Assembly (NCBI GenBank): GCA_028289245.1
Contig: JAQGGT010000004.1
Location: forward strand, 310,001 to 374,000
From: Candidatus Saccharimonadota bacterium
GTDB lineage: Bacteria; Patescibacteriota; Saccharimonadia; Saccharimonadales; UBA4665
Reading direction: 5' to 3'
Length of the DNA stretch: 64,000 nucleotides
Below are positions 1,805 to 39,459 of the stretch, piece after piece. Made by a program: the position numbers and the translations under genes. Within the stretch, counting starts at the first letter, position 1, and each line of letters opens with the position of its first letter. Under the pieces are notes generated by a model, which was not told where the DNA came from, made no database searches, and was given only the letters and a program-made list of their open reading frames with translations.

Positions 1805-2068
1805 CTAGTCGTCTTCCGGTCGATCGATCTCAATGTAATCAGCATCATTCATATCATCTAGCGGGTCGGGGTGCTCACGGATAAACCTTGCACTCAACCA
1901 CCAGGCGTCCAAAGTATGCTGCACGGCTAGAACGCTTCCGCTCATCGGATCTGCTGCGGAGTGCAAGTCAGCCAGAAAACTAGCCTGCTCTTCGGGGCAG
2001 AGCTCACCGATCCAGGCCGACTCTTCGCGAGCCGGATTCTGCGCGTCAACACCTGATAAGTTTTCCAT
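1805..2068 (-). CDS. Hypothetical acidic protein
   Basis: An 87-residue, strongly acidic protein without Lys (N-terminus MENLSG, C-terminus IDRPEDD). It contains a helical stretch with an aromatic patch (LDAWWLSARF). A TAACCT hexamer sits 7 nt upstream of the ATG, matching the leaderless spacing seen elsewhere in the window. It converges on the FAD oxidoreductase. No family is recognised; it may be a small cytoplasmic accessory protein. Confidence 0.55.
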   Translation of the reverse strand: MENLSGVDAQNPAREESAWIGELCPEEQASFLADLHSAADPMSGSVLAVQHTLDAWWLSARFIREHPDPLDDMNDADYIEIDRPEDD

Positions 2069-2233
2069 ATAATCAGGTTACAACCATTGCTGGACACGGG
2101 CAAGTATACATACCCGCGTTTGACGTCCGGTCTAATGCTTCGTATGTACGTTGGCGACAGAATGTAGGCCACCTTTTCACGCACTGCAAGCTGCCTTGCA
2201 ATCGAATTAACCAGGCTCCTAGTACGGGCCGAA

Positions 2234-3166
2234 TTAGCGAGCCTTGGACAGCTCGTGCCGGAGTGCCGGTGGCAGGTACGGAGCAGCAGTTTGGGCGTCG
2301 GCGATGACGCTAGGGGCGTGGTTGTCGACGTCTGATCGGGCCACGTAAAAGTCACTGAAGATCATGCGATAGTGCCGCTCGACTTGCGTGCCGTCAAAGT
2401 ACCGGTCAGCCTCAACATCAACATGCCAGACCGGCATGGGTAGGCGGGTGGTGCAGTTGTCGAGTTTAAACATCTCCAAATTGGTAAACATCTGGGTCCG
2501 CAGGTCGTTGGCATGCCAAAGTATTATTTCCATGTCCATGGTTTGGCGTAGCTCGGCTTTGTCTTTGTCTTCAAATTTCTGCTTGGCGTTCCGGGAATAT
2601 TTATAGACGCGTCGCAGCCAGGCTGGTTGCAAAAAGACGTTGCGGAAAATCCAGGCCGGTAGCCGCCGGGAAAAGATCGTTGAACCGATGCGATAAAATC
2701 GCATTCGGCCCGGCGTGAACAGAAAATCGTCGTGATGCGCCAGGCCGACGATACTCACTAGCAGGTCGACGCGTTCGGCGATGTCCGGGTGGCGTTGCAG
2801 CATTCTGGTTACCATGGCAAAGCCAATGCTCATGCCGGCGATGCTCAGCCGTTTGTCGCCATACTGGCTCTTGATAAAGGTCGCCAGATAATCCGCCAGG
2901 TTATCCATGGTTGGCTCTTTGCCGATCTTGTAGAAACTATCCATACCGCCGAAACCGGGCAGATCGGGCATAGTAACGGCACCATATTCATTAAATACGG
3001 CGCTCAAGCCGCGCCAACGCTCAATCGTGGAATGCTGCCCGTAGATGAAGAGTATTTCACGATCATGGTCCTCAGGCGCCGGTAAGCTCAGTACCCGCCC
3101 ATGCAGCCCGTCAATGACGAGCGGTTTGATGTATTGAAGAAATTTTTCTTCTGACTTGTCAGCCAT
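2234..3166 (-). CDS. Alpha/beta-hydrolase fold protein
   Basis: A 310-residue soluble alpha/beta hydrolase. The nucleophile elbow is GMSIG with Ser113, preceded by YGQHS near residue 42 as the likely oxyanion-hole turn. PDLPGFGGMDS around residue 67 is typical of the family after strand beta4. The acid and base are probably in VEADRYF and DNHAPS near the C-terminus. A GGAAC Shine-Dalgarno lies upstream of the ATG. The class includes esterases, lipases and haloalkane-type hydrolases; the substrate cannot be read from sequence. Confidence 0.85.
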   Translation of the reverse strand: MADKSEEKFLQYIKPLVIDGLHGRVLSLPAPEDHDREILFIYGQHSTIERWRGLSAVFNEYGAVTMPDLPGFGGMDSFYKIGKEPTMDNLADYLATFIKSQYGDKRLSIAGMSIGFAMVTRMLQRHPDIAERVDLLVSIVGLAHHDDFLFTPGRMRFYRIGSTIFSRRLPAWIFRNVFLQPAWLRRVYKYSRNAKQKFEDKDKAELRQTMDMEIILWHANDLRTQMFTNLEMFKLDNCTTRLPMPVWHVDVEADRYFDGTQVERHYRMIFSDFYVARSDVDNHAPSVIADAQTAAPYLPPALRHELSKAR

Positions 3167-31986: not shown

Positions 31987-33132
31987 ATGAGTATACATAG
32001 TAATTATTTCAAACATGCCCCTGCTCCTGAGCGCAAGAATTCTGTATCGCGCAACAGGAAAGTAAAAGTTGCTGTTCTAATCCCGGCCCATAACGAGGCT
32101 GGTTCGATCGCTGCTACTATTGAAGCTCAGCTGGCCCAAAAGCGCGTTGCTGATCAGATTATCGTCATTAGCGATAACAGCACCGACAACACCTATGAAA
32201 TTGCCAAAAGCTACCCCGCTGTCACCGCCCTCAAGACTGAAGGCAATCTCCACAAAAAATCCGGTGCCCTCAACTGGGCCTGGACCAACTACGCCCAAGA
32301 CGCCGACTTAGTTGTCTGCCTCGATGCTGACACCGTCCTGCCTGATAACGCGGTCCGCGATTGGATTGCCGAATTCCGTAAGGACAAAAACCTCGGTGGC
32401 TCATCCTCGAAGTTTACAATGCTTGGTACGCCGATGATTGTTCGCTTGCAACGGGCCGAGTTTGCCAAGTGGACCACCACCGGCCTACGCCGCGGTTGGG
32501 CCAGCGTGCTGGCAGGTACCGGTTGCATGATCCGCAACACCGCGCTCAAAGAACTCGCTGCTCGCGACGACCGCGAAGGTCCCTGGAGCTACAACTCAGT
32601 CGTCGAAGATTTCGAGCTCACCTACCGCCTCCGCGAAATGGGTTACCTGTGCCAGATCTCGCCAACCGTTCGGGCCTACACCGATGCCATGAAGTCTGTT
32701 AAGACCCTCTGGGCGCAGCGCATGAAGTGGCAAGTTGGCACCGTCGAAGACCTCACCATCCTCGGCCTCAACCGCCTGACCGCCATCGACTGGTGGCAGC
32801 AAATTCTTGGCCTGTTCGCCGCTGCCGTCCGCATTATGTGGGTTGTCCTACTGATCATCGCGGCTACGCCGTACGGTAGCATCAGCCACAACATTCTATG
32901 GATTCTGCTGCCCTTCTTGTTCATCATCAGTGACACCGCCCAAGCCTTCTTGATACCACACCGCGATCGCAAGGACATCTTGCTCGCCGCCTCGCTAGTC
33001 CCCCAGGAGATTTTCGCCTGGATGCGAGCCGGATGGTTCCTGACGGCCTGGTATGAGGTTATGGTAAGTAAAGTAACACGCCGCAAGAAAGACCGTTGGT
33101 CTATGCAATATGCGGCAGAAGGGGTTAACTAA
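31987..33132 (+). CDS. Processive-type family 2 glycosyltransferase
   Basis: A 381-residue GT2. The cytoplasmic catalytic domain shows VLIPAHNE, the UDP/metal-binding Asp113-Ala-Asp115 (LDADT), GTGCMIR, the catalytic VVEDFEL (Glu207-Asp208) and QRMKW (244-248), a Lys variant of the QxxRW signature of processive synthases. About three to four membrane helices follow (260-360). It resembles PgaC, hyaluronan and cellulose synthases, so it probably polymerises and exports a beta-linked polysaccharide. The 52-aa membrane gene 3 nt downstream may be a partner subunit. Confidence 0.85.
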   Translation: MSIHSNYFKHAPAPERKNSVSRNRKVKVAVLIPAHNEAGSIAATIEAQLAQKRVADQIIVISDNSTDNTYEIAKSYPAVTALKTEGNLHKKSGALNWAWTNYAQDADLVVCLDADTVLPDNAVRDWIAEFRKDKNLGGSSSKFTMLGTPMIVRLQRAEFAKWTTTGLRRGWASVLAGTGCMIRNTALKELAARDDREGPWSYNSVVEDFELTYRLREMGYLCQISPTVRAYTDAMKSVKTLWAQRMKWQVGTVEDLTILGLNRLTAIDWWQQILGLFAAAVRIMWVVLLIIAATPYGSISHNILWILLPFLFIISDTAQAFLIPHRDRKDILLAASLVPQEIFAWMRAGWFLTAWYEVMVSKVTRRKKDRWSMQYAAEGVN

Positions 33133-33135
33133 CGT

Positions 33136-33294
33136 ATGTACGGACAAAAAACTACCGCCACGACTTTGTCGACCGGTATCGCCGCAGCATCTTGGGTCAT
33201 GTGGAGCGTTACTATCGCTCTCGCCACCGCTGCAGCCTTCCTGCTCGTTCGCGTCTTCATCACGATGCGCAAAAACGCTAGCCAGCGCCCGTAA
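33136..33294 (+). CDS. 52-aa single-pass membrane protein linked to the GT2
   Basis: Fifty-two codons beginning 3 nt after the GT2 stop, with AAGGGG upstream as ribosome site. The peptide has a Thr-rich N-terminus, one hydrophobic helix (about 14-42, WVMWSVTIALATAAAFLLV) and a basic tail ending RKNASQRP. Small membrane subunits accompany some processive synthases (PgaD beside PgaC), so a partner role is plausible but inferred from position only. A terminator follows, closing a two-gene operon. Confidence 0.65.
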   Translation: MYGQKTTATTLSTGIAAASWVMWSVTIALATAAAFLLVRVFITMRKNASQRP

Positions 33295-33332
33295 TCGGCC
33301 AGGCTCCGGCAACTCGTTTGCCGTGATATAAG

Positions 33333-33360
33333 CAGCCCACTCGTTGGGCTGTTTTTATTT
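33333..33360 (+). terminator. Rho-independent terminator after the GT2 operon
   Basis: CAGCCCA and TGGGCTG form a perfect 7-bp stem with a 5-nt loop, followed by TTTTTATTT. It lies 39 nt after the 52-aa gene. Confidence 0.85.
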
Positions 33361-33405
33361 GCCATGTTGTGGCATAGTAAGGTTATAACTTAGCGAGGTA
33401 TTATT

Positions 33406-34176
33406 ATGGCCCGATCTCTAGAGACTTTTACCGACGTTTTGTCTTTTCAACAGGCAATAACCCGCAGCACGCTGGACGAGCAACCCAAAATGTTCCTCGG
33501 CGAGCTCGAGGGCGGCGCCCTGCGCTTTGCCGAAGCGGCCTTCCGGGGGATGAACACCAGCAGCTTGTACGTCCAGCAGCAATACCGTGAGCCTGGTGGC
33601 CGAGGCCCCCACTTTGATGTCTACGACGGGCTGCTCGACCCTGACTGGCCGTACGCCGCCGTGTATAACCTTGCGGGCCGTGCCGCTATCTCGGCCACCA
33701 CGCTCGACTCGGCCATGCATCGAAATTACCGTGCCACCTACCCAGAGCGCACCCAAGATGCCGAGGCAGCCCGCCGCGTCATCGGCGCCATGGCCTTTGC
33801 CGCTCCTGGTGCCCGCATCTTTAATGGCATTCTCCAGCCCGGCACCGGATTTATCCTGCCCCAGCGCCGCGACATTCTACCGATAGTTCACCAAATTGTC
33901 CCACTTGAGCCAGAAGCCCCGGGCGCTATCCTCAAATTTGTGGCTCCCTTCCGGGACGGTGAATGCAAGCAGACCCTCCGCGATGCCGGCTACACCACCC
34001 TCGATGAGTTCGCTACTAACACCTTTGCAGGCGTTCAGGGCCAAGCCGATACCCCTCAGCCGTCAAGCTTTGATTCCACTCGGAAGGCACGCGATCTAGG
34101 CTTACTTGATGGGCGCGGACGTTCACGAATCGCTCGTCCCGTGCCGCCTGCCCGCAGCGGCGGCCTCCTCAATTAG
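33406..34176 (+). CDS. Hypothetical 256-aa protein with HxD-like motif
   Basis: A soluble protein not recognised by family. A Gly-rich loop leads into GPHFDVYDG near residue 66, an H-x-D pair followed by an AAVYNLAGRAAIS strand. Further on GTGFILPQR and DILPIVHQIVPLEP give a strand with a His near residue 161. The order HxD, strand, His is what a cupin/2OG-type iron site would show, but this is only suggestive. The C-terminal 40 residues are basic and Pro-rich. GAGG lies before the ATG; it overlaps the convergent next gene by 4 nt. Confidence 0.6.
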   Translation: MARSLETFTDVLSFQQAITRSTLDEQPKMFLGELEGGALRFAEAAFRGMNTSSLYVQQQYREPGGRGPHFDVYDGLLDPDWPYAAVYNLAGRAAISATTLDSAMHRNYRATYPERTQDAEAARRVIGAMAFAAPGARIFNGILQPGTGFILPQRRDILPIVHQIVPLEPEAPGAILKFVAPFRDGECKQTLRDAGYTTLDEFATNTFAGVQGQADTPQPSSFDSTRKARDLGLLDGRGRSRIARPVPPARSGGLLN

Positions 34177-34550
34177 TCAAACGCTAGATTTCTAGACAGC
34201 GTATGCGCCCAGCCGTTTAGCTTCTTTAGTTCGTTATTGGCGATTAGCTGTTCCTGTTCGCTACTCTCTTGCCGCTTACGTAAGCTATCGAGAATGCTAT
34301 AGATATGGCTAATACTGCGCTCAAGCTTGGCAAAACGCCCCTCTTGCTCATCAAATCGGGCATTAATTGCAAAGCTTTGCACGTCAGTCCGGTCATTTAC
34401 TGCATCGATATGAGTATTCGTGGTCTTTAGGTCTGCCTTAACTGTGGCAAGATCCACTGTAACCGTTGCAAGATCTGATTTTATATCGTCGATGCTGCCG
34501 GTGATGGTATCGAGACGGGTGAGGATAATGGTCATTTCGTCGTGGCTCAT
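34173..34550 (-). CDS. Coiled-coil protein
   Basis: A 125-residue protein made of heptad-like repeats (LDTITGSIDDIKSDLATV, DLATVKADLKTTNTHIDAV) over most of its length, then a basic C-terminal part (LRKRQESSEQEQ). No membrane segment is present. ATG 34550 begins MSHDEMTI; an upstream in-frame ATG adds 13 hydrophobic residues and runs into the promoter region, so it is less likely. It probably acts as an oligomeric scaffold; function unknown. Confidence 0.55.
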   Translation of the reverse strand: MSHDEMTIILTRLDTITGSIDDIKSDLATVTVDLATVKADLKTTNTHIDAVNDRTDVQSFAINARFDEQEGRFAKLERSISHIYSILDSLRKRQESSEQEQLIANNELKKLNGWAHTLSRNLAFD

Positions 34551-34654
34551 AGTATCGACTATTATGATAAGTGCTGGCGCGTTTTGCAAAAGAAAAGCCT
34601 CAAAGATTAACTTATTTAATACTTGCCGCTACAGCCTATCCAGAAGTGTTAAAA

Positions 34655-34683
34655 TTGACTTTTAAGCATAAAAAGAGTATAAT
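34655..34683 (+). promoter_or_regulatory. Strong sigma70 promoter of the alpha-CTD-like gene
   Basis: TTGACT at 34655-34660, a 17-nt spacer and a perfect TATAAT at 34678-34683. The predicted start near 34690 gives a leader of about 75 nt that contains a 6-bp hairpin (TGAGTC/GACTCA, 34728-34743) and a GAAAGGG ribosome site before ATG 34765. Confidence 0.75.
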
Positions 34684-34764
34684 AGTACGGTTGTATCCAT
34701 ATACAATGGACGTTGAAAATTTGGAGATGAGTCGCAGGACTCACCCTACAGAAAGGGACTTCCG

Positions 34765-35622
34765 ATGGCTAACACCGGAGTACCTAGCTCAGCCTCGATC
34801 GACGCACTCGCCAAGTGGCTCAATCTGCTCGAAAAGTCCGGCATGACGCCAGAACTGATGAACCGCGTCAGCAACCGCCCCATACTGCGCCAGGAGATCG
34901 TCGCCCTCATCAGGGATGACATGCTCCCGCAGTGGCAGCCGGTGTACGGCAGGCCCCTGCTCAACACGTTCAATGAACGGCTGCAGGTCGCCTTAAGCGA
35001 AGCGGGGCTCTCACTCCCCCATGGCTCCACGTTCGATGCAACGCAGTTGTTCGATGAGGCAGCCAACGAGGTGTCGCCGTTCATGGATCGCTACGAGCTC
35101 GCCCTGAAGCTGTTCGACGGCATTGCCAATCTGTACTTCGGGCTAAGCATTCAAGTGCCCGCCACGGTCGAACGGATCGCGTCCTTCACACAGCGCGCCC
35201 CGCGCACCGTTAGCAAGCGCCTCAAGCGCGAGCTGGAGACGGCCGCGAATCGCCTGTGCAGCTGGTCGCTCAGCGGCAACTACACCGGAAGCCGCTCGAC
35301 CCAGCTCAACGGCTTGAAAGCCGCAGGACTGGTTCCAGAAGACTGGGCGATCAGCCAGCTGCTCAAGGAAGAGCGCGAGTACTTCAAGCAGTACATCGCC
35401 GCTGGCAAAGCCGACGATAAAGGATTCGACTCCATCGACCTCAGTGTGCCGGCCCAGCGGCTACTCAGCGCAGCGCTCAACACCCTGACCATTGGTCAGT
35501 TGCGCCGACTCACCGCCGATCAGTTCGTCACGATCAGAGCGACTAGCCCGGTCATCGCCGAAGAAATCATCGAGAAGATGACAACCTACGGCCTGACGTT
35601 CGCACCCGTCTCCACCGACTAG
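34765..35622 (+). CDS. Protein with RNA polymerase alpha-CTD-like C-terminus
   Basis: A 285-residue soluble protein. The last 55 residues (LNTLTIGQLRRLTADQF, IAEEIIEKMTTYGL) read like the helix-hairpin-helix of the RNA polymerase alpha C-terminal domain (LNTIGDLLxLTxxELLxI). A central basic helix pair (RAPRTVSKRLKRELETAANRL) could also bind nucleic acid. Codons are more GC-ending than the neighbours. It has one of the strongest promoters in the window and a structured 3' region with a hammerhead ribozyme. I infer a DNA- or polymerase-binding protein; the family is not recognised. Confidence 0.6.
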   Translation: MANTGVPSSASIDALAKWLNLLEKSGMTPELMNRVSNRPILRQEIVALIRDDMLPQWQPVYGRPLLNTFNERLQVALSEAGLSLPHGSTFDATQLFDEAANEVSPFMDRYELALKLFDGIANLYFGLSIQVPATVERIASFTQRAPRTVSKRLKRELETAANRLCSWSLSGNYTGSRSTQLNGLKAAGLVPEDWAISQLLKEEREYFKQYIAAGKADDKGFDSIDLSVPAQRLLSAALNTLTIGQLRRLTADQFVTIRATSPVIAEEIIEKMTTYGLTFAPVSTD

Positions 35623-35667
35623 CTCGCTAGTCGCACGTCGGCAGTCTCAGCCTTAATGAGATAAAAT

Positions 35668-35748
35668 CTCGGCTCACGCCGAGTGCGAGAGGTTCTTTGG
35701 AATCGTTTCCGTCGCTCACGCGGCTACAAACCTCCAAGAACTTCTCGC
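35668..35748 (+). ncRNA. Structured RNA segment upstream of the ribozyme
   Basis: Two adjacent hairpins. The first is CTCGGC-TCAC-GCCGAG (35668-35683). The second is long: 35685-35701 pairs with 35733-35748 through about 16 bp (GCGAGA with TCTCGC, then GGTTCTT with AAGAACT, one bulged T). It ends one base before the hammerhead. A TAAAAT hexamer at 35662-35667 could start a separate transcript, otherwise this is the 3' UTR of the preceding gene. No known RNA family is recognised. Confidence 0.5.
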
Positions 35749-35749
35749 A

Positions 35750-35805
35750 GCACCTCTACGAATATAAGTCGTACTGATGAGTCTTACTATCAAGACGAAA
35801 GGTGC
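35750..35805 (+). ncRNA. Type III hammerhead ribozyme
   Basis: All conserved elements are present in order. Stem III is GCACC (35750-35754) paired with GGTGC (35801-35805). U16.1 and cleavage-site C17 are at 35755-35756. Stem I is TACGA (35757-35761) paired with TCGTA (35769-35773), loop 7 nt. The core CTGATGA is at 35774-35780. Stem II is GTCTT (35781-35785) paired with AAGAC (35792-35796), loop 6 nt, with the conserved G10.1-C11.1 pair. GAAA is at 35797-35800. Self-cleavage is expected between 35756 and 35757, leaving a cyclic phosphate upstream and a 5'-OH downstream. The open stem is III, hence type III. Confidence 0.93.
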
Positions 35806-35810
35806 CAAGA

Positions 35811-35838
35811 AAAAACCCGCCATAGCTGGCGGGTTTTT
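35811..35838 (+). terminator. Strong Rho-independent terminator just after the hammerhead
   Basis: AAAAACCCGCCA (35811-35822) and TGGCGGGTTTTT (35827-35838) form a perfect 12-bp stem with a TAGC loop; the five Ts of the 3' arm serve as the U-tract. Only 5 nt separate it from ribozyme stem III, so cleavage would remove the terminator hairpin from the finished RNA. Confidence 0.9.
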
Positions 35839-35851
35839 AGTGAGACGTGGG

Positions 35852-35946
35852 GAGCATTCACGCTAGGTGATCGAGGAGACTGAACCAGTCGAGACGAGCG
35901 AAGCGAAGTCGAGCGGTGTCTCCTCGAGTGCCTAGCGTGAATGCTC
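35852..35946. repeat. Large imperfect palindrome with REP-like loop
   Basis: Arms of 29 nt (35852-35880 and 35918-35946) match at 26 positions, with an outer perfect 16-bp block GAGCATTCACGCTAGG. The 37-nt loop contains GTCGAGACGAGCGAAGCGAA followed by a second GTCGAG, similar in style to REP elements. It lies between convergent genes, 9 nt from the deacetylase stop, and may act as a bidirectional terminator or a mobile palindrome. Confidence 0.6.
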
Positions 35947-35954
35947 AGTAAATA

Positions 35955-38219
35955 TTACTGCGAGATCTGAGCAGAGGTAGTAACCAGACCTTGGGCCAAC
36001 GTCTGGACGCTGACGCCCGAAGCCTTAAGGTACGCCATCTCAGTAGCGAAATCAGTAGGCGTTGTGTTGTAGCCAGGATCAGTCGTGTCGTCGACGTTGA
36101 TGTCGTGGTACATCAGGATCAGCCAGGTGTTGCTGGCCTTAGCTTGATCGATGTAGCTCTTGACTTGGGCCACGGTGGTGCTGGAGTTGATGTCCTGAAC
36201 CAGCAGGTTGTACTTGTCGAAGTTGTCTTTGTCGTTGTAGCCGATCTCGACGCCGCGCTGGGAGCCATAGTTGCTCTGAATCTGGCTAGTAACAGCGGCG
36301 TTTACTTCTCCGTAAGGAGCGGCGAAATCAGTGATGGTCGAACCGATTAAGTTTTGCAGGGCCGTCTTAGAATCGGCGAGTTCCGAGGCCACCTGGGCGG
36401 CGGTGAGCTGGGTCAGGTGGGGGTGATCGACGGTGTGTGAGCCGATCTCCATACCTTGGGCATAGAGGTCCTTAACATTCTGGCTGGTCATGTAGCAGAT
36501 AGAGCTGACATCGGGGTCGCAAAGGTTGAGGTAGCCGCTAATGACGTAGAAGGTAGCCTTGAAGCCGTCTTGATTCAGGACCGGCAGGGCGTTGTTGTAC
36601 TGGCTGGCGATGCTGTCGTCGAAGGTGATGCTGACCAGCGGCGCGTTGAAGCCGGCAGCCACATACGGTTCGAGGTCAAAGTCATCGACCGTCAGAGTGC
36701 CGACGGCGGCCAGTGTCTGGTAGGCTACGGCCGAGACGGCCCCGGTGGGCATGGTGAAGGTGGCGTAGAAGCGGGTCCAGCTGCCGTTTGAGACGGCCGG
36801 GTTGCCGAGCCAAATGTACTGGGTAGTGCCGTCGTTCATGGTTACAGCTACCAAGACTTCGGTGCTAACAGTCGACTGGTAGTAATCGCTAAACTTGTAC
36901 TCTTTGCCGGCGGTGATGGCTTGCGGGCTGTAGGTCCAGTTGGCGCCACCGTCAGTGTACGCGGTGGTGTTTATGGTGCCGCTACGCGAGCCAGTGTGGC
37001 CGGTGGTGGCGTAGGTAAAGGTGGTGGTGTTGTTACCGTACTGGCCCTTGTACCAGCCGTTCGGCGTGGTGGTATCGGTGGTGCTAGCCGTTTCTAAGGA
37101 AGGGTTTGGTACGACGTTTGCAGCGGTGGGTGTTACCGGAGTTACCGGAGTAACTGGCGTGGTCGTGGTGCTCGTGCCAACGAGTGAAGCATCGTCGATG
37201 CTCAACGTGCCAACAGCAGCGATGACGTGGTAGACCGTGACCTGCTTGGCGTTAGCTGGAGCCGTCAGCGTAGCCGTGAACTTAGTCCAGGCAGTTGCGG
37301 CAGCCGGCGTGCCGAGGTCGACGTAGGTGAAGTTGCCGCTGCCGTCATTGTATTCGGCTACGACGTCGCTCTTGACGGTTGATTGGTAGTAATCACTAAA
37401 GGTGTATTGGGCGCCGGCTGTGACAGCTACGGGCGTGAAGGCCCACTTAGAGTCGCCGGAGGTGTATTTGGTGATCTTGACGGTGCCGCTGCGCGAGCCG
37501 GTGTGGCCGGTGGTGGCGTAGGTAAAGGTATGGGTGTTGGTGCCCCAGGTGTCCTGGCTCCAGCCGGTTGGCAGGCTGCCGCTAGCAGTTTCGAAGCCAC
37601 CATTGGTGATCAATTCATTGCCTGGAGTGGGCGTTACCGGTGTAACTGGGGTGACGGGAGTAGTGGTCGTATCGGCAGTAGCCAAAGAAACGTCGTCGAT
37701 GTCTAGGGTGCCAACGCCGGCAATGTAGTGGTAGATGGTGACTTTTTTGGCGGTGGCGGGTGCCGTAAAGTTGACGCTGAATTGTGTCCAGCCGGTGGCA
37801 GCAGCTGCCGTGCCGAGATCTTGGTAGGTCAAGGTACCACTGCCGTTGTCGAACTCTGCCGTCACCGTAGTGGCGATACCAGATTTATAAAAATCACTGT
37901 AGGTGTAGGCAGTACTACCGGTAATCGCGACCGGCGTAAAGGCCCACTTGGAGTCGCCGGAGGTGTACTTCGTGATTTTGGTTTCTAGACTCTTCGAGCC
38001 GGTGTGGCCGGTGGTGGCGTAGGTAAAGGTATGGGTGTTGGTGCCCCAGGTGTCCTGGCTCCAGCCGGTTGGCGCCGTACCGGAAGCGGTTTCGGCCGAC
38101 GGGTTGGCAACCAAGTTCGTGCCGAGCGCGGCGGCGTGCTGAGCAAAGAGCGGCAGGACGCTGGCGCTGAGTAATATCGCGGTGCTAAAGACTGACGCGA
38201 GGGTTTTGGTGAGCTTCAA
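35955..38219 (-). CDS. Secreted NodB-type polysaccharide deacetylase with three carbohydrate-binding modules
   Basis: A 754-residue exported protein. The start is TTG (KLTKTLASVFS signal peptide) with AAGGA upstream. Three CBM4/9-like beta-sandwich repeats of about 150 residues (near 33-185, 200-350, 365-520) are joined by TPVTPVTPVTP linkers. The first two share near-identical segments such as GWSQDTWGTNTHTFTYATT. The NodB domain follows: SITFDDS, SHTVDHPH metal site, PYGEVN and LMYHDIN. It would deacetylate an N-acetylated glycan, its own exopolymer or a partner's wall. It is transcribed divergently from GH16. Confidence 0.9.
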   Translation of the reverse strand: MKLTKTLASVFSTAILLSASVLPLFAQHAAALGTNLVANPSAETASGTAPTGWSQDTWGTNTHTFTYATTGHTGSKSLETKITKYTSGDSKWAFTPVAITGSTAYTYSDFYKSGIATTVTAEFDNGSGTLTYQDLGTAAAATGWTQFSVNFTAPATAKKVTIYHYIAGVGTLDIDDVSLATADTTTTPVTPVTPVTPTPGNELITNGGFETASGSLPTGWSQDTWGTNTHTFTYATTGHTGSRSGTVKITKYTSGDSKWAFTPVAVTAGAQYTFSDYYQSTVKSDVVAEYNDGSGNFTYVDLGTPAAATAWTKFTATLTAPANAKQVTVYHVIAAVGTLSIDDASLVGTSTTTTPVTPVTPVTPTAANVVPNPSLETASTTDTTTPNGWYKGQYGNNTTTFTYATTGHTGSRSGTINTTAYTDGGANWTYSPQAITAGKEYKFSDYYQSTVSTEVLVAVTMNDGTTQYIWLGNPAVSNGSWTRFYATFTMPTGAVSAVAYQTLAAVGTLTVDDFDLEPYVAAGFNAPLVSITFDDSIASQYNNALPVLNQDGFKATFYVISGYLNLCDPDVSSICYMTSQNVKDLYAQGMEIGSHTVDHPHLTQLTAAQVASELADSKTALQNLIGSTITDFAAPYGEVNAAVTSQIQSNYGSQRGVEIGYNDKDNFDKYNLLVQDINSSTTVAQVKSYIDQAKASNTWLILMYHDINVDDTTDPGYNTTPTDFATEMAYLKASGVSVQTLAQGLVTTSAQISQ

Positions 38220-38367
38220 GGGTGATCCTTACTAAACTGATTTCGTTTAATTGATTAGTTTATGAATTCCACCCGATAACTATCTATTGCTCTTAATATA
38301 CACCTTGTTGCATATTTGTCAATTATATTTGACCGAAAATGCTTAATGATGCTATAATATAAATAAT

Positions 38368-39459
38368 ATGATTGGTCAACTTCCCTCAGAGAGGGCCCTG
38401 CCACTGGGACAGGCATTGCCGAAATTCAAGCCGCTCAAGGACTGGTTCGCCAGCGTCTTGGCATCCCCACAACTCGACAGCGTACTTATAGCGATCATTT
38501 CCCTGCTGGTCCTAGTGCTTTTTAGCACCGTTCCGGGCAGCGCCCCCGCCCAAATTACTACCGCCAAGCCAGACAAGTCGCTAAACTGGCTCATCAAGCA
38601 AACCGTCCCGGCGCCCAGCAAGTCCAAAAAAGCCGCGCCGGCAGTCATGCCAAGTTGCGCCCAGCCGGTCGGCATATTTTCGAACTGCGCCGATGTCAGC
38701 ATTGATTTTGCACATCAGGCCGACGGCGCCATGACCGATCCACGCATCGTAGCCTATGTCGGCGCGCCAGAAGCCAACAAAGAAGCTCAGTTCTACACTG
38801 CCAACCCAAGCAACCTCCGCATCGAAAACGGTAGCCTGGTGCTGCAAGCCCAAGACACTTCGCACGGCAGCTACAAATACACCTCAGCCCGCGTCAGCAC
38901 CATCAACCGGTTGAATGTTCAGTACGGTAAGCTGGTAATCCGGGCTAAGCTGCCGACTAGCGGTGGCACCTGGCCCGCTCTGTGGATGCTACCCTCTACT
39001 GGGAAGTACAAAAACGCCGCCGCCCTGGCCGATCCAACCCATGATGTTAATGACGGCGAGATCGACATTGCCGAAGCCGTCGGCACCCAGCCCGGGGTCA
39101 TTTACGGTATCGCTCACTGCTTGGCCTATCCACCTGACGGCCGCAAAGGCTACTACGGTACCGTTAACGTTACCGACAGCGCCAGCACCTTCCACGATTA
39201 CGGCATTGAGTGGACGCCCACCAGCATCACCTTTACTATCGACGGGCAGGCGTACTACACCCAAACCAAACAGCCCGGTGCCGACTACCGCTCGTGGCCC
39301 TATGACCAGCCCTACTACCTGACAATGAACTTGGCCCTCGGCGGCACCTGGGCCGGTACCGACACCGCCGACTACCCCGGCGATGGTGTTGATGCCAAAG
39401 CCCTGCCCGCCACCATGGCCATCCAGTCGATCAACTACTACAAATATCTCGGCAAATAA
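38368..39459 (+). CDS. GH16 family glycoside hydrolase, membrane-anchored
   Basis: A 363-residue protein with an N-terminal hydrophobic helix (about 37-58), a basic linker and a GH16 beta-jellyroll. The catalytic signature is EIDIAE (Glu231, Asp233, Glu236); TWPALWMLPS before it and YYLTMNLALGGTW near the end are also typical. GH16 enzymes cleave beta-1,3 or mixed beta-1,3/1,4 glucans and galactans. A TATAAT with TGC ends 10 nt before the ATG, a very short leader. It follows the deacetylase divergently in the glycan cluster. Confidence 0.92.
   Translation: MIGQLPSERALPLGQALPKFKPLKDWFASVLASPQLDSVLIAIISLLVLVLFSTVPGSAPAQITTAKPDKSLNWLIKQTVPAPSKSKKAAPAVMPSCAQPVGIFSNCADVSIDFAHQADGAMTDPRIVAYVGAPEANKEAQFYTANPSNLRIENGSLVLQAQDTSHGSYKYTSARVSTINRLNVQYGKLVIRAKLPTSGGTWPALWMLPSTGKYKNAAALADPTHDVNDGEIDIAEAVGTQPGVIYGIAHCLAYPPDGRKGYYGTVNVTDSASTFHDYGIEWTPTSITFTIDGQAYYTQTKQPGADYRSWPYDQPYYLTMNLALGGTWAGTDTADYPGDGVDAKALPATMAIQSINYYKYLGK

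Follow-up and report, generated by a model that had tools for sequence, protein, structure and literature searches.

The window analysed here, a stretch of DNA 64,000 nucleotides long, contains at 35750–35805 a hammerhead with every core base and three stems. We conclude that this segment is a real, active-looking type III hammerhead with a predicted cleavage site, and a new member of a known ribozyme class. We further infer that it is cleaved in the cell, and that it probably generates and protects the 3′ terminus of a single-gene mRNA. The evidence computed here comprises the ribozyme and its covariation, its place after open reading frames (ORFs), the stem that abuts it, and a complementarity between 5′ and 3′ regions that is kept by compensating changes. 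The features of the locus, in window coordinates, are as follows.

34655–34683, + strand: predicted sigma-70-type promoter of the upstream gene, TTGACT-17-TATAAT (consensus scan, 11/12).
34765–35622, + strand: 285-aa orphan ORF (ORF list; no Pfam family).
35684–35749, + strand: long stem-loop adjoining stem III, with 5′ arm TGCGAGAGGTTCTT.., 3′ arm ..AAGAACTTCTCGCA and inner hairpin GTCGC/GCGGC (inverted repeat 35684–97/35736–49; MFE fold).
35750–35755, + strand: 5′ strand of stem III, GCACCU, with U16.1 at 35755 (sequence; covariation across 34 copies).
35756, + strand: C17, with the predicted cut 3′ of this base, 35756/35757 (alignment to the hammerhead core).
35757–35773, + strand: stem-loop I, UACGA/UCGUA (35757–61/35769–73), with the 7-nt loop AUAUAAG (sequence and alignment; 5/5 pairs covary).
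35774–35780, + strand: catalytic core CUGAUGA (sequence; descriptor hits in relatives).
35781–35796, + strand: stem-loop II, GUCUU/AAGAC (35781–85/35792–96), with the 6-nt loop ACUAUC (sequence, alignment and covariation).
35797–35799, + strand: core GAA, that is, G12, A13 and A14 (sequence; descriptor hits in relatives).
35800–35805, + strand: 3′ strand of stem III, AGGUGC, with A15.1 at 35800, so that GAAA occupies 35797–800 (sequence; covariation).
35811–35838, + strand: intrinsic terminator stem-loop AAAAACCCGCCA-TAGC-TGGCGGGTTTTT, symmetric and usable from both strands (inverted repeat I3; fold).
35852–35946, − strand: long inverted repeat (95 nt) just past the stop of a convergent polysaccharide-deacetylase gene (inverted repeat I1; minus-strand 3′ UTR sequence).

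The invariant core of a type III hammerhead consists of C3UGANGA9, G12A13A14, the pair U16.1-A15.1 and H17, and all of these are present at 35755–35800. In both the MFE fold and the alignment to the model, stem III is open and stems I and II are closed by loops, which is the type III permutation. Moreover, the unconstrained MFE fold of the 56 nt is exactly the hammerhead secondary structure. The initial annotation had proposed a complete type III hammerhead at 35750–35805, and the elements that it named, including CTGATGA, GAAA, the U16.1-A15.1 pair, C17 and the loops of 7 and 6 nt, were all found in place. Its description of three perfect 5-bp stems is accurate for stems I and II, but stem III comprises 6 bp. 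Its placement of the genome in the Patescibacteria is supported, the genome belonging to the Saccharibacteria order. In nearly all of the aligned copies, loop I begins with AU, which may hint at a tertiary contact between loop I and loop II.

A strict descriptor gave a single match in the window, and 200 order-1 Markov resamples (12.8 Mb) gave none. In Rfam, by comparison, a scan of the whole window at gathering thresholds gave no entry, and the RF00008 model scored the window copy at 24.6 bits (E = 0.005 in a 401-base stretch), whereas the gathering score is 48.5 bits. This threshold is a database criterion and not a structural one, and because no relative in 60 genomes attains it either, it seems to be set too high for the present lineage. 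In view of this poor fit of the Rfam model, we made our own alignment of 34 copies and a leave-one-out covariance model, which was built from the 33 other copies and excluded the window copy. The training of our first model had included the window copy among its 34 sequences; therefore, the leave-one-out score of 57.7 bits (E = 1.1e-13; next match in the window, E = 2.4) is the unbiased one. As judged from sequence, the leave-one-out model settles that the window hammerhead is real. The covariance-model check proposed in the initial annotation thus gave a divided answer, below the Rfam gathering score and strongly positive with the lineage model, and the statement that a random origin has a very small chance agrees with both the descriptor counts and the leave-one-out E-value.

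Conservation of the core bases at homologous loci had been set beforehand as a point on which the assignment could fall, and the core proved to be conserved, with CUGANGA exact in 98 of 106 hits and GAAA in 104 of 106. A search for covariation among relatives had also been called for. In the 34-copy alignment, 97% of the cells pair, double changes occur in 14 of the 18 pairs, and the covariation score is 0.725, compared with 0.04–0.13 for slid alignments. Because the stems covary with double changes, the hammerhead stems are under selection as RNA.

The window hammerhead lies in the 3′ untranslated region of the 285-aa ORF, 127 nt past the stop. The long stem-loop begins approximately 60 nt past the same stop, and in the MFE fold of this region the stem-loop, the hammerhead and the terminator stand back to back. 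Two further elements that had been pointed out previously are present, namely a predicted promoter ahead of the upstream gene and the terminator, which follows the hammerhead after 5 nt. The description of the upstream gene as alpha-CTD-like received no support and was rejected; a Pfam search at E up to 10 returned only a sub-threshold match to HTH_38 (E = 0.23), and no homologue occurred in the other 91 family genomes searched. The convergent polysaccharide-deacetylase gene has the same hairpin-then-terminator layout (35852–35955, minus strand) and shares the terminator, without a hammerhead. The surrounding region, 31987–39459, contains carbohydrate-related genes, namely a glycosyltransferase of family 2, the polysaccharide deacetylase with a carbohydrate-binding domain, and a glycosyl hydrolase of family 16.

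The position after an ORF is a general one. At 87% of Saccharibacteria loci, the end of an ORF on the same strand, 90 aa or longer, lies 20–250 nt upstream of the hammerhead, compared with 29% that have a convergent ORF in the mirror position downstream, the ORF calls being mechanical. The gap between stop and hammerhead is typically 80–130 nt in our survey of the units. In the genome to which the window belongs, this gap carries a strong stem-loop, the 3′ arm of which adjoins stem III in most copies. An abutting stem, defined as a 3′ arm in which 9 or more of the final 14 nt are paired, is found at 72% of Saccharibacteria loci and at 26–35% in shuffles and control positions. This measure was adopted after the first result; the earlier one, which counted pairs at least 30 nt back, gave weak discrimination in Saccharibacteria and none in the two other sets. 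A terminator directly 3′ of the hammerhead occurs at only 7% of Saccharibacteria loci, and therefore the window layout is a minority form. At another locus (L023), two convergent hammerheads flank one terminator-like stem-loop.

On this arrangement we base the following mechanism. Transcription would start near 34690 and end at the terminator at 35811–35838, and the hammerhead would fold before or at termination and cut 3′ of C35756. The trimmed mRNA would consist of the ORF and the stem-loop at 35684–35749, ending in a paired stem with a short GCACCUC tail and a 2′,3′-cyclic phosphate, and the fragment containing the ribozyme and the terminator would be discarded. Hammerhead cuts in general leave a 2′,3′-cyclic phosphate, an end that gives no direct entry to enzymes requiring a 3′ hydroxyl. 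Cleavage in the cell would be accompanied by protection of the end and by a longer life of the mRNA or control of its translation.

A second relationship concerns the 5′ side of the transcripts. At many loci, the strand just 5′ of the hammerhead is complementary to a leader located approximately 450–1500 nt upstream, before the ORF. A leader complement of the locus's own arm with a score of at least 11 was found at 28 of 95 Saccharibacteria loci, compared with 2 of 285 for foreign arms (p = 1e-16) and 2 of 90 on the downstream side; for the loci from genome records, the corresponding numbers are 15 of 98 and 2 of 294 (p = 3e-8). The foreign arms were taken from other loci and searched with equal freedom, and therefore the signal is not an effect of selecting the best match. 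The pairing is not universal, because approximately 70% of Saccharibacteria loci fall under the threshold. For the window gene, no leader complement was better than shuffles (23% of shuffles do as well), and the same was true of its convergent neighbour. In viral contigs, the pairing was unspecific, with equally many direct and downstream repeats, and we make no claim for them. Five viral contigs (L236, L264, L312, L332 and L333) carry a short recurring palindrome (GTGTCTTTAAAGACAC-like) 5′ of their hammerheads, which occurs more than once within the same contig, and the adjacent element differs from the bacterial one.

The leaders vary between taxa, and their complementarity to the arm is retained. 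The clearest example is the gene C4:185651–186538 of genome G000, which has its sole homologue among the family genomes searched in another genus, with a protein identity of 36%. Both orthologues have a hammerhead approximately 100 nt past the stop and have retained the leader and the arm, with compensating changes between them (TGACAAGTAAACAGAGA with TCTCTCTGTTTACTTGTCA; TTAATAAGTAGACTC with GAGTCTACTTATTAA). In addition, a −10 box is located 32–70 nt upstream of 61% of the leaders and in 5% of control windows, and the 38 nt 5′ of the leader fold at −8.6 kcal/mol, compared with −4.5 kcal/mol for shuffles, which places a stable hairpin between the −10 box and the leader. That the leaders contain a further known ribozyme or riboswitch was rejected, because an Rfam scan of seven loci at gathering thresholds returned tRNAs only. 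One unit, G000:C7:58561, was located solely through its leader; it lacks a hammerhead and has kept a 12-nt complement between leader and arm at its 3′ end. The corresponding locus (L359, G000:C7:56000–59500; approximately 2035–2575, minus strand) shows the promoter, the hairpin, the leader and the complementary 3′ arm, with no hammerhead after them. Many of the 3′ elements of G000, for example those of L025 and L027, are stem-loops in which the inner hairpin, CACGG-N4-CCGTG, is conserved and TGTTTTCTTCC comes next, and the leaders of this genome contain a second complementary segment, GGAAAACACACG; the inner hairpin and the second segment could represent a binding site for a protein, or else another long-range helix.

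The strand of the 3′ arm can enter either the local stem or the long-range helix with the leader, and the two compete for it. This feature invites comparison with the hok and AapA type I toxin mRNAs, which resemble the present units in being single-gene mRNAs in which the 5′ end pairs with the 3′ end; they differ in that a terminator, not a ribozyme, generates their 3′ end, which exonucleases then trim, and in that their genes are toxins. The best rival to our reading is a translational on-off control of this kind, in which the leader and the 3′ arm would pair and shut the mRNA, the hammerhead would set the exact 3′ end, and later trimming or refolding would open the message. The complementarity with its compensating changes, the two mutually exclusive partners of the 3′ arm (its local 5′ arm and the leader), and the position of the leader between promoter and ORF are all in keeping with such a switch. 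However, the leaders pair upstream of the ribosome-binding site, many units, including that of the window, have no detectable leader, and the proteins are diverse and belong to almost no known family. We therefore consider this control unlikely, although it deserves more weight than the other alternatives.

In our preferred reading, in which the hammerhead makes and protects an mRNA 3′ end, the members of the family would share the order promoter, 5′ hairpin, leader, one orphan ORF, stem-loop and hammerhead, and would be spread over the Patescibacteria. In many of them the leader would pair with the strand beside the cut, so that the trimmed mRNA could form a loop with both ends clamped; in the window copy no such partner is detectable. 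The arrangement most likely serves to supply accessory, strain-specific proteins with an mRNA that is long-lived or under conformational control. The broader proposal is that hammerheads serve the Patescibacteria as a routine device for making mRNA 3′ ends, that scores of unrelated accessory genes share this one transcript design, and that the 3′ end left by self-cleavage binds the 5′ leader, so closing the mRNA and protecting its ends; for this proposal we regard the balance as even.

The genome containing the window (1.22 Mb) has 29 hammerheads at E ≤ 0.01 under the first model, many of which outscore the window copy, and nearly all of them lie 3′ of different small orphan genes. No hammerheads were found in 5 genomes of the same genus; 25 of 93 genomes in the family carry them, as do 45 of 380 in a phylum-wide sample of Patescibacteria. 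The occurrence in the phylum is patchy, and the carriers often have multiple copies. An exact-pattern scan, which covered one stem II variant only, yielded at least 115 loci with one genome per species; among the loci listed, 84 are in named Patescibacteria groups according to the record titles, 12 are in other named phyla and 19 are in unnamed bins. In a distant Patescibacteria genome (L088, G187:C16, 5611–8841), five same-strand hammerheads stand in series approximately 570–1020 nt apart, separated by different ORFs, and the sequence 3′ of two of them is nearly identical. A common protein family behind the hammerheads was rejected, as 46 proteins, namely the ORFs of the units together with the window ORF, gave two Pfam matches of one protein each and four single PHROG matches. 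Because these proteins match almost no family, and because the window ORF has neither a Pfam family nor a homologue, we consider that the units carry accessory orphan genes.

These observations bear on a second alternative, namely that the units are mobile gene cassettes or a retro-element resembling retrozymes, of which the hammerhead would be a replication part and the orphan genes the cargo. According to the accessible text on retrozymes (PMC4918200), these are likewise repeated units with hammerheads, between a few hundred and roughly a thousand nucleotides in length; the units described here differ in having no link to a reverse transcriptase, a promoter of their own and protein-coding orphan cargo. 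The patchy occurrence, with none in the same-genus genomes, the unrelated ORFs with similar flanks and the orphan nature of the cargo would suit mobility. However, three genomes with 7–8 hammerheads (G019, G043 and G047) have no reverse transcriptase, the complementary arms do not enclose the promoter and the ribozyme as transposon ends would, and orthologous units have remained with their gene at 36% protein identity. Neither a linked reverse transcriptase nor RNA ligation machinery was found, the reverse transcriptase being untied to copy number and RtcB being absent from the 39 genomes searched. Because reverse transcriptase does not track the hammerhead copies, retro-mobility is unlikely and was rejected. 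A cassette-like spread of the units is possible, but as an account of the hammerheads the mobile-element explanation is rather improbable.

A third alternative, to which we give slightly less credit, is that the hairpin, hammerhead and terminator, approximately 35674–35840, form an independent small RNA with its own promoter, apart from the upstream mRNA. The block has a compact fold (−66.8 kcal/mol), and a weak promoter-like site, TCGGCA-18-TAAAAT, occurs at 35638–35667. However, this site matches at only 9 of 12 positions, and chance alone would give approximately two sites of this quality in the stretch that was scanned; furthermore, the 127-nt spacing between stop and hammerhead agrees with that of the mRNA units, and other members of the family start at promoters 5′ of the ORF. 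Least probable is a natural “Tornado”, in which an RNA made by two ribozymes, or by one ribozyme and a processed 5′ end, would be ligated into a circular mRNA: single ORFs flanked by hammerheads approximately 570–1070 nt apart at several places and the complementary ends would agree with it, but several units have promoters between the flanking hammerhead and the leader, so that the 5′ end would be a triphosphate, and RtcB is absent from the 39 genomes searched, including the genome of the window (9 of 14 control genomes were positive), so that circularisation by RtcB is unlikely and an RtcB-sealed circular mRNA was rejected.

The likeness of the window ribozyme to the type III hammerheads of RF00008, which are known from satellite RNAs, viroids and retrozymes, extends to the core, the open stem III, C17, the loops on stems I and II and the covarying stems. 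It differs from them in scoring below the Rfam cut-off, in its short stems, and in being encoded by a DNA genome, behind a protein gene and next to a terminator, instead of by a circular RNA replicon. Hammerheads in bacteria have already been reported, some of them clustered in the vicinity of small non-conserved proteins with no known function (Perreault et al., 2011, PMC3088659; PMC6155905), and the clusters described here are alike in this respect. The accessible text of these two sources emphasises phage and prophage settings, and the abutting stem-loop, the complementary 5′ leader and the expansion in Patescibacteria are not described in it. Our literature search, which covered sources other than preprints and subscription journals, found no paper linking hammerheads with Patescibacteria or Saccharibacteria. 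The transcript design around the ribozyme appears to be a new variant of hammerhead use.

The role of prokaryotic hammerheads was called an open question in the accessible text of a 2017 review (PMC6155905). With 29 hammerheads in one small genome, in one largely consistent position, this role becomes a testable claim on mRNA ends. Their stems covary and, at many loci, compensating changes have preserved a long-range partner; such a design could help to show what bacterial hammerheads do. As a speculation on the reason for this arrangement, organisms with a very small genome may depend on mRNAs that are long-lived or under tight control to make their accessory proteins.
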